A stretch of DNA of 64,000 bases from positions 1-64,000 of IMG/VR virus record IMGVR_UViG_3300044716_001642; one strand, given 5' to 3'. The position numbers and the translations under genes are program-made. This document shows, one piece after another, positions 10,896 to 12,553 of the stretch; within the stretch, counting starts at the first letter, position 1, and every line of letters begins with the position of its first letter. The notes beneath the pieces are model-generated. The model searched no databases. It saw only the letters and a list, made by a program, of their open reading frames with translations, and was not told the DNA's origin. This DNA comes from a virus.

Positions 10896-10956
10896 GTTAA
10901 GCCCCAGCGGTTTAGGGGCCCCTCCGGCCCGTAAGTGGTTGGTATTGAACATGTTA
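10896..10956 (+). repeat. palindromic intergenic element, copy 8 (shortened)
   Basis: About 61 nt; the first arm is shorter (GTTAAGCCCCAGCGGTTTA) but the GGGGCCCCTCCGGCCC core and second arm are kept. Confidence 0.8.
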
Positions 10957-11092
10957 TGCATGCGTATACATATACCCATAAGTGTATGCAGAACTATCCC
11001 CGCCCTCATTATTTGCATTATTTACGGCCACCTAGGCCGCTATTTGCCCAAATTTTTTTTCTTTTTTTTGAATTTTTATTTTGAAATTTTTA

Positions 11093-11121
11093 TTGACAAT
11101 GGTGTAAAAAGACACTATATT
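11093..11121 (+). promoter_or_regulatory. strong sigma70 promoter for the large RNA and tRNAs
   Basis: TTGACA 11093-11098, 17-bp spacer, TATATT 11116-11121, preceded by about 50 bases of T/A-rich sequence. A second match (TTGACA 11201, 16 bp, TAGATA 11223-11228) lies inside the transcript. Confidence 0.75.
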
Positions 11122-11127
11122 AGTTTT

Positions 11128-11731
11128 ATAAGGTAGTTGGTTCCCGATGATCCAATGGGACTGGGCTTACTCGGTCGAAAACAAAATCGGAAATTGATTT
11201 TTGACATTTTATTTTTGTTTGGTAGATAGAGTAGTAATACCTATCCCTGTGCAATCGAAAGAGGAGTGGTGCTTAATAAGGCGTTTCGTGTGCATTCGTA
11301 TGCATCGCAGCCGCTTGCCAAATAGATTTTTAGTAGACCCGCCATGCCTCTCACTTGCAATGAGTAGTTTCTAAAGTACACGGCAACTAAGTAAGTTGAT
11401 GCACACTTTGGCGGGTGTTCTTTTACCAAGCGCAGATGCTCGCAAAGCTCTACCGCGATGGGCGACAATGCAATGTTTCCGGAAACAACATTTAACCCAT
11501 AGGGAACTTCAGAAGAAGTCTTGGTAATAATTCTAAAACTGGAATGTTAGCTTAGAGGCAGCTATCATCTAAGGAGTGGGACTGGACGTGGAGAACTGGT
11601 AATTAGTATGGACACAATTCAAATAAGCCATACATCCTATTTATAGGTGCGGAGATGACCGTGAATTGCGTTTCACAGGACGAAGAAATTCGTAACCCCT
11701 TTGGCGTAAAAGCACACCAGTAAATTTTATA
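11128..11731 (+). ncRNA. large structured RNA of unknown class, with 23S L11-domain-like module
   Basis: About 600 bases without a usable reading frame lie between a near-consensus promoter and two tRNA genes. Hairpins visible in the sequence include an 8-bp stem ACCCGCCA/TGGCGGGT (11337-11344 with 11409-11416), GTGAA/TTCAC (11661-11665/11672-11676) and ACGAA-GAAA-TTCGT with a GNRA tetraloop (11680-11693). Positions 11545-11575 match E. coli 23S rRNA 1058-1088, the L11-binding GTPase-associated region, in 26 of 31 bases. Size and position next to phage tRNAs recall the GOLLD and ROOL RNAs, known large ornate phage RNAs, but I cannot confirm membership. Ends are inferred from the promoter and the first tRNA. 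Confidence 0.6.
11545..11575 (+). other. L11-binding-region-like RNA motif
   Basis: Contains TGTTAGCTTAGAGGCAGC and ATCATCTAAGGA. Compared with E. coli 23S 1058-1088, five bases differ, all transitions. Two of them, G1062 to A and C1076 to U, are partners and keep the helix-43 pair as A-U. The thiostrepton-site base A1067 is kept. Confidence 0.6.
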
Positions 11732-11817
11732 TGCGGGTTAGACTAGAGGTCAAAGTCAACGGGCTCATATCCCGTAGTCTAATATAGACACGTTTGGTTC
11801 AATTCCAACACCCGCAA
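11732..11817 (+). tRNA. class II tRNA with CAU anticodon
   Basis: Acceptor TGCGGGT/ACCCGCA, D-arm GAC...GTC with GG in the loop, anticodon arm ACGGG-CTCATAT-CCCGT (anticodon CAU), a long variable arm with perfect hairpin GTCTA-ATA-TAGAC, and a T-arm with TTCAATT and one bulged base. Long variable arms are normal for Leu, Ser and Tyr tRNAs, not for CAU tRNAs, so its charging identity is open. Confidence 0.75.
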
Positions 11818-11826
11818 ATTTTTTAA

Positions 11827-11899
11827 CGAATAGTGGCCTAATGGCTAAGGCACCCCGTTTGGGGCGGAGGGATTGGAAGTTCAAGTCTTCCCTATTCGA
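11827..11899 (+). tRNA. tRNA-Pro (UGG)
   Basis: Acceptor CGAATAG/CTATTCG, D-stem GCC/GGC, anticodon loop TTTGGGG (anticodon TGG with G37), T-arm GGAAG-TTCAAGT-CTTCC. One C-A mismatch in the anticodon stem. Confidence 0.85.
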
Positions 11900-11904
11900 T
11901 TGAC

Positions 11905-12426
11905 TTAAATCTTCTCCGTAATTTTATTCTTTATTATGGGTGCTATTTTAGTTTCAAATGCTTCATCCATAATCTGTTTTTGTTTTTTTCTACTGCTTAC
12001 TTCTGAGACATTTATAATAAAAAAAGAATAGTTCATATCACACAGCTCTCTAAATTTTATACTATCTTTAAGTTTTACATCCTCAAGCTTCTTCTCTCCG
12101 AATATTGGGAAATAGTGAACTGGTCCATTTACTTCTACCGCTAAAGATATTTCTGGTATGCAAATATCTATCTCAAGACCAGATTGTAAGGTTTTCCTAT
12201 CTGACTGAATGACATTCAAAGAGGGAAATACTTCTTTTATTTTTAAGAGAAGATAATCCTCTGGAAAGCTTATATTTCTTTTGCAACCTTTATTGATATG
12301 AAAATTTTTATTAAAATACCTCATACGGCAAGATTTGCTACAGAATCTTTGATTATGCTTTGCCTTGTTGTGCTTCCTATCTTTCAAGGGTTTAAATAAT
12401 ACATTACATTCTGGACAGTTTATCAT
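11905..12426 (-). CDS. zinc-finger PDDEXK homing endonuclease-like protein
   Basis: 173 residues. The N-terminus has a four-Cys zinc finger (CPEC...CSKSCRMRYF). The C-terminal part has GLEIDICIPEISLAVEVNGPVHY, the signature of the Vsr-like / EDxHD group of PDDEXK nucleases that includes phage homing enzymes such as I-Bth0305I. It lies on the opposite strand only five bases from tRNA-Pro, a typical landing place for such mobile endonuclease genes. AT-rich compared with its early-region neighbours, consistent with transfer. Confidence 0.7.
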   Translation of the reverse strand: MINCPECNVLFKPLKDRKHNKAKHNQRFCSKSCRMRYFNKNFHINKGCKRNISFPEDYLLLKIKEVFPSLNVIQSDRKTLQSGLEIDICIPEISLAVEVNGPVHYFPIFGEKKLEDVKLKDSIKFRELCDMNYSFFIINVSEVSSRKKQKQIMDEAFETKIAPIIKNKITEKI

Positions 12427-12485: not shown

Positions 12486-12553
12486 CAAACTTCTCATAAT
12501 CAATAACTTAAGGGCCCATCCGGCCCGTAAAGCCCTCTGCGTCAACAGGTTAT
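12486..12553 (+). repeat. palindromic intergenic element, copy 9 (diverged)
   Basis: CTTAAGGGCCCATCCGGCCCGTAAAG core; arms weaker than in copies 1-7. Directly upstream of the next promoter. Confidence 0.75.

Follow-up and report, generated by a model that had tools for sequence, protein, structure and literature searches.

A family of phage RNAs predicted to mimic the GTPase-associated centre of 23S rRNA near phage tRNA genes

A short segment of a viral genome, at positions 11532–11727 of the stretch analysed, almost certainly folds as a complete L11-binding domain, or GTPase-associated centre (GAC; helices 42–44 of 23S rRNA), directly upstream of two tRNA genes. The window, that is, the whole stretch analysed, comprises 64,000 nucleotides (positions 1 to 64,000 of IMG/VR record IMGVR_UViG_3300044716_001642). 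Judged by sequence comparison, the element and its relatives form a previously undescribed family of RNAs whose mimicry is also of a new type, and we propose a candidate function for them.

Anatomy of the element and its match to 23S rRNA

The sequence-only reading of this DNA had noted that window positions 11545–11575 share 26 of 31 bases with E. coli 23S rRNA 1058–1088, and a recount gave the same figure. This is the top site in the 64-kb window, with a runner-up on the plus strand of 19/31, and the best score among 100 Markov-1 simulated sequences of 64 kb each was 22, so the short match is not due to chance. All five differences are indeed transitions, A1067 is retained (11554), and the replacement of the G1062–C1076 pair by A–U, a compensating change in helix 43, was also confirmed. 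A second compensating change was found at 1082–1086, a tertiary Watson–Crick pair of the L11-binding domain: C–G in the window replaces U1082–A1086, so that two separate pairs are altered in concert.

The extent given earlier, 11541–11612, needs correction to about 11532–11727. The hairpin ACT-GGTAATT-AGT, which had been likened to helix 44, is present in the window and sits in a variable, non-conserved insert; its identification as helix 44 was rejected, and the true helix 44 (11704–11713) lies 120 nt further on, after the inserted arm. It is contained in the second conserved block of the window, TTTGGCGTAAAAGCACACC (11700–11718), directly before the tRNAs. In E. coli 23S numbering, the family layout is helix 42 (1047–1055/1104–1112), helix 43 (1057–1081), the junction (1082–1090), the inserted arm P3 between positions 1090 and 1091, at the foot of helix 44, a UUUG linker, helix 44 (1091–1100) and the return strand of helix 42. 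The features of the region are given below, where R1 is a covariance model trained on 38 phage elements alone.

11093–11121, plus strand: sigma-70-like promoter, TTGACA-17-TATATT, 11/12 consensus; a pattern match alone, shuffles averaging 2.7 sites in the region
11338–11416, plus strand: abiF-type antitoxin RNA module (RF03085-like) with an enlarged loop; 29.8 bits, under the gathering threshold of 37; conserved in contigs L004, L028 and L046
11532–11727, plus strand: whole predicted GAC-mimic RNA, equal to 23S 1045–1114 plus an insert; matched by R1 at E 2e-33, the window being among its 38 training sequences
11538–11542, plus strand: helix 42 (P1), 5′ strand, pairing with 11717–11721
11544–11568, plus strand: helix 43 hairpin (1057–1081)
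11569–11577, plus strand: junction strand (1082–1090), with the tertiary pair of 1082 (11569) and 1086 (11573) and A1088 at 11575; A1084, A1085, G1087 and A1088 are invariant
11578–11699, plus strand: P3, an inserted arm of 122 nt that is not in rRNA; root stem 11578–11580 with 11697–11699, showing strong covariation
11700–11703, plus strand: family-specific UUUG linker from P3 to helix 44, each base 94–99% conserved across 145 elements; not in 23S rRNA
11704–11713, plus strand: helix 44, GC-GUAAAA-GC (1091–1100), GCGTAAAAGC, with A1095 at 11708; R1 aligns the homologous place of E. coli 23S
11714, plus strand: A1101, family-specific; A in 144/145 phage elements, U in the 23S rRNAs compared
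11717–11721, plus strand: helix 42 (P1), 3′ strand, identified by conservation across the 145 elements
11732–11817, plus strand: tRNA with CAT anticodon (ARAGORN and Rfam), directly downstream of the element
11827–11899, plus strand: tRNA-Pro (TGG) (ARAGORN and Rfam)

Minimum-free-energy folding was unremarkable, with z scores of −0.02 for the 641-nt region and −0.20 for the element alone, and it misfolded the domain; the evidence for the fold is therefore carried by covariation and not by energy.

Covariation and conservation across the family

When IMG/VR was searched for exact copies of GYTTAGARGCAGCYAYCATYTAA, 48 contigs were found, of which only L040 runs on as real 23S rRNA. In the remaining contigs, a variable insert follows and then, where the contig extends far enough, a second conserved block, TTTGGCGTAATAGCACACC, which completes the domain and has the 23S counterpart GCGUAAUAGCUCACU. 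Complementary flanks around the two blocks form the equivalent of helix 42, as in contig L014 (GCATCGTGCTGG...CCAGCACGATGC). From IMG/VR, cultured phages and bacterial assemblies, at least 194 elements (145 non-redundant) were gathered, and the family extends beyond this set; L040 and Paenibacillus phage Pd_22F were left out as true 23S rRNA, as were Staphylococcus and Listeria 'phage' records that were small and lacked annotation. Homologues lacking the motif would have spoken against the earlier reading, but the opposite was found: the motif defines a large family. The record of Pd_22F (L132, MZ092003.1, about 83977–84012) is filed as a complete phage genome, yet this part of it is plain 23S rRNA and probably reflects misassembly or host DNA.

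Cultured carriers include Serratia phage BF, the Erwinia SNUABM and Kaldavass phages, Cronobacter GAP32 and Pectobacterium CBB; others are Xanthomonas XacN1, XaC1 and XbC2, Aeromonas 4_4572, and Pseudomonas pf16, Milchi, Astolliot and UNO-G1W1. Further elements come from assemblies filed under the names Flintibacter, Clostridiaceae, Bdellovibrio, Parcubacteria and Propionibacterium. In the cultured-phage records the element lies in gaps or beneath small hypothetical ORFs, and none of the phage records inspected carries an RNA annotation for it. Element length in the collected set is about 130–445 nt, with inserted arms of 51–365 nt; a whole-region blastn search against phages and plasmids gave zero matches, conservation being limited to the two core blocks. 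Extra model matches in long-insert elements were read as one element split by the model. Two separate copies per record were observed in G011 (L063 and L087) and G017 (L055). The inserts of nine elements (L003, L005, L024, L042, L052, L061, L065, L133 and L137) share the sub-motif GGCACCCC-GAAA-GGTAAGGC, a small covarying hairpin, which indicates that the arms are not random.

Analysis of base pairing revealed extensive compensatory change. Positions 1058–1080 pair in 144/145 non-redundant elements (UA, GC, AU and CG types), as do 1054–1105 (144/145; GC, AU and UA) and 1055–1104 (144/145, several pair types), and further helix 42 pairs covary, although these helix 42 and 43 figures are biased upward, since the pairing was scored during element collection. 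Neither the stem of the insert nor the tertiary pair had been a selection criterion: the first, second and third pairs of the stem form in 145, 142 and 134 of the 145 elements, respectively, and 1082–1086 is paired in 132 (UA 61, CG 49, AU 22) and in 38/38 sequences of alignment A2. In A2, 91.2% of cells pair, compared with 69.3% when shuffled and 33–50% when slid; double-changed cells number 222 versus 70 in shuffles, and the covariation score is 0.56 versus 0.14.

The stems vary across the 145 elements while the tertiary-core residues stay, with U1060, G1059–C1079, G1071, C1072, A1084, A1085, G1087, A1088, G1093, U1094, A1098, G1099 and C1102 invariant or near so. The residues that mark helix 43 of the GAC fold are present throughout (G1059, C1079, U1060 and A1088 in 145/145, G1071 in 144/145), as are those of helix 44 (G1093, U1094 and A1098 in 145/145, C1092 and G1099 in 144/145); the tertiary pair 1082–1086 and the closing stem of helix 42 belong to the family as well. 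The exposed loops are laxer than is usual for rRNA: A1067 is retained in 90% (130), A1095 in 94% (136), A1096 in 77% and A1070 in 72%, the substitutions being A1070G (28%), A1096G (22%) and a base other than A at 1067 (10%).

The relation to 23S rRNA was also recovered in the reverse direction. Model R1 found E. coli 23S at locus positions 1104–1173, equal to 23S 1045–1114, precisely the part that the model covers (53.5 bits, E 9e-15), and in eight bacterial assemblies it matched phage-type elements and the 70–71-nt GAC of 23S rRNA, and nothing else. Rfam LSU models match a few elements weakly at the same place (E 0.0008–0.01, none above gathering), no more than is expected for a GAC-like piece. 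Over 50 core positions, identity averages 85% to E. coli 23S and 87% among the elements. The elements do not continue into the rest of domain II or of LSU rRNA; P1 closes each unit, and the flanks are tRNA or coding genes. The existence and the predicted fold of the GAC-mimic RNA are well supported, and the earlier claim of an L11-binding-domain mimic inside a phage RNA gains strong backing from the compensatory changes in 145 non-redundant relatives, the tertiary pair included, and from the recovery of 23S rRNA by a phage-only model.

The tRNA setting and an abiF-type RNA upstream

Carried by many large phages, the family is closely associated with tRNA genes and usually sits among them. No tRNA lies on the stored stretch of 59/194 elements; where one does, the nearest is on the element's strand in 135/135. 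The distance to the nearest tRNA is at most 500 nt in 109/194 and at most 150 nt in 90/194, and among the first 96 loci, 49 elements lie within 500 nt of a tRNA, compared with 28 for a random-position control. A single transcript spanning the GAC-mimic RNA and the tRNAs in the window is plausible, and the promoter-like pattern at 11093–11121 could drive such an RNA operon.

Several further observations concern these clusters. The variable region of the window's CAT-anticodon tRNA is long, which is not usual in methionine tRNAs. ARAGORN detected tmRNA in the stretches of nine loci, and in the phage-type contigs L011, L013, L063 and L097 a tmRNA gene (Rfam) shares the tRNA cluster with the GAC mimic; in another phage-type contig, a group I intron lies inside the tRNA cluster (L096, 7079–7273). 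A hairpin-like intergenic repeat, GGGCCC(M)TCCGGCCCGTAA, is found at the ends of coding regions at window positions 10914–10936 and 12509–12530.

Upstream of the element lies the abiF-type module. Its homologue in L004 (4814–4850) scores 49.6 bits for RF03085, above the gathering threshold of 37, and the modules in L046 (13451–13529) and L028 (10736–10814) have the longer loop of the window and score 29.8 bits. In the close relatives the module is on the same strand, about 115–130 nt upstream of the GAC mimic (5 nt in L046). A search for AbiF-type (Abi_2) genes in this group of records, some of them fragments, was negative, and no such module was found near elements outside the window's lineage. 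The AbiF antitoxin RNA neutralises its toxin through direct binding (PMC12373285). A phage antitoxin RNA without a toxin gene suggests counter-defence, and the module is possibly an anti-abortive-infection decoy RNA. By analogy, its place in the same presumed operon hints that the GAC mimic may be a decoy too.

Candidate functions and comparison with known systems

We consider it reasonably probable that the GAC mimic acts as a decoy or factor-capture RNA, and within this reading L11 itself is, by a small margin, our preferred target. With a little less confidence, we propose that the element is a phage-encoded, trans-acting structured RNA presenting a free GAC to host uL11 or to a GAC-directed factor. 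The RNA is probably transcribed together with the phage tRNAs, and in the infected cell the free GAC would bind host uL11, or a host factor or toxin acting at the GAC. Sequestration of L11 would blunt ribosome-dependent RelA activation, and phage translation would be protected if the RNA soaked up a defence effector directed at the GAC. Ribosomes lacking L11 (relC) are relaxed and activate RelA poorly, so the stringent response would be dampened by an RNA that traps L11. A search for the L11 gene was negative in 20 of 20 phage records tested and positive in all 14 control genomes; any such partner would thus have to be supplied by the host. The tertiary core, which L11 needs, is near-invariant while the exposed loops are less strict, which points to L11, or to some other protein that recognises the fold, in preference to a factor reading the loop bases alone, and weakens the case for contacts with translation GTPases or thiopeptides.

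In the main rival explanation, which we hold to be doubtful, the RNA does not trap L11 but serves as a decoy for an anti-phage nuclease, a modification enzyme or an abortive-infection toxin of the host directed against the 23S GAC, much as phage tRNAs replace cleaved host tRNAs. The location of elements in tRNA clusters on the same strand would suit this, as would the abiF antitoxin-like RNA, lacking a toxin gene, that adjoins the element in the window's phage group; however, the confinement of this neighbour to one lineage counts against the decoy explanation, and no defence effector is known to us to act on the GAC. It is rather unlikely that the GAC fold has been reused as a compact junction in some bigger RNA with a structural role, such as a GOLLD/ROOL-like scaffold or cage, binding neither L11 nor GTPases. 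The better conservation of the tertiary core than of the exposed loops, the long and diverse insert arms, and the frequent location of ROOL near phage tRNA islands (PMC12286853) are compatible with such reuse, but A1067 and A1095 are still 90–94% conserved despite the divergence of the stems, P1 closes a short unit that often abuts tRNAs or coding genes, and the GOLLD model was silent in 10 element-bearing records, with its controls silent as well.

Messenger RNA mimics of rRNA sites are the classical route by which ribosomal-protein operons are regulated, which lends some appeal to a cis-regulatory leader that would sense L11 for a neighbouring gene in the manner of ribosomal-protein leaders; we regard this as very improbable, since the L11 search was negative as described above, many elements lie between tRNA genes, and the downstream genes differ. 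A recent capture of host 23S, or contaminating rRNA, without function of its own is scarcely credible: some INPHARED records with the 5′ motif really are 23S rRNA (Pd_22F), but the extensive covariation and the family-wide marks (A1101, UUUG and the inserted arm, none of them in the 23S sequences examined) refute it, and elements differ from the 23S of the same assembly, as in Clostridiaceae strain 9, whose own 23S has A1062–U1076 where its phage-type element has G–C. The simplest history would begin with a single ancient capture, or with strong convergence, after which the element spread from phage to phage.

We lean modestly towards a widespread new class of viral RNA that mimics a ribosome domain in trans and captures L11 or GAC-directed factors. 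Translation factors and RelA contact the ribosome at the GAC, which is also the site of action of thiopeptide antibiotics. If the proposal is true, rRNA mimicry in trans would be a new mode of virus–host interaction in phages of Pseudomonadota, Bacillota and other hosts, and would offer a handle on phage control of the stringent response, of translation GTPases or of ribosome-targeting immunity. The GAC mimic would also help explain the RNAs within phage tRNA clusters. For structural work the element offers a naturally occurring GAC of minimal size onto which an arm has been grafted, and its presence in cultured phages makes it directly testable.

No published description of the element was found in the open-access literature. 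At the gathering threshold, the only Rfam 15 family in the window is tRNA, and related loci scanned gave only tRNA, tmRNA, group I intron and abiF. The T4 species 1 and 2 RNAs (rnaC and rnaD) are stable RNAs of unknown function from a phage tRNA cluster; they were rejected as relatives, there being no model match anywhere in the T4 genome. GOLLD (RF02032) and ROOL (RF03087) are also large structured phage RNAs, with no detected similarity to the element: GOLLD was absent from the Rfam scans, and ROOL gave no match in a whole-library cmscan of the window or in one of 10900–11950 at E up to 5. GOLLD has been reported ribosome-bound in pull-downs, and the consulted part of the source mentions no rRNA-like domain (PMC12286853). 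The abiF antitoxin (RF03085) and type III toxin–antitoxin RNAs neutralise a protein by binding it, whereas the GAC mimic has a different fold and no adjoining toxin gene. Leaders such as the L10 leader (RF00557) also mimic a protein-binding site of rRNA; they are cis-acting 5′ UTRs of ribosomal-protein genes, whereas the element in the window has tRNAs, and no ribosomal-protein gene, downstream. The closest counterpart is the GAC of 23S rRNA itself (helices 42–44, E. coli 1051–1108), with which the element shares the three helices, loops of the UAGAAGC and GUAAUA types and the tertiary pair 1082–1086; in contrast to the ribosomal domain, the element is free-standing, carries an arm of 51–365 nt between 1090 and 1091, the UUUG linker and A1101, and is closed by a helix 42 equivalent of about 5–9 bp.
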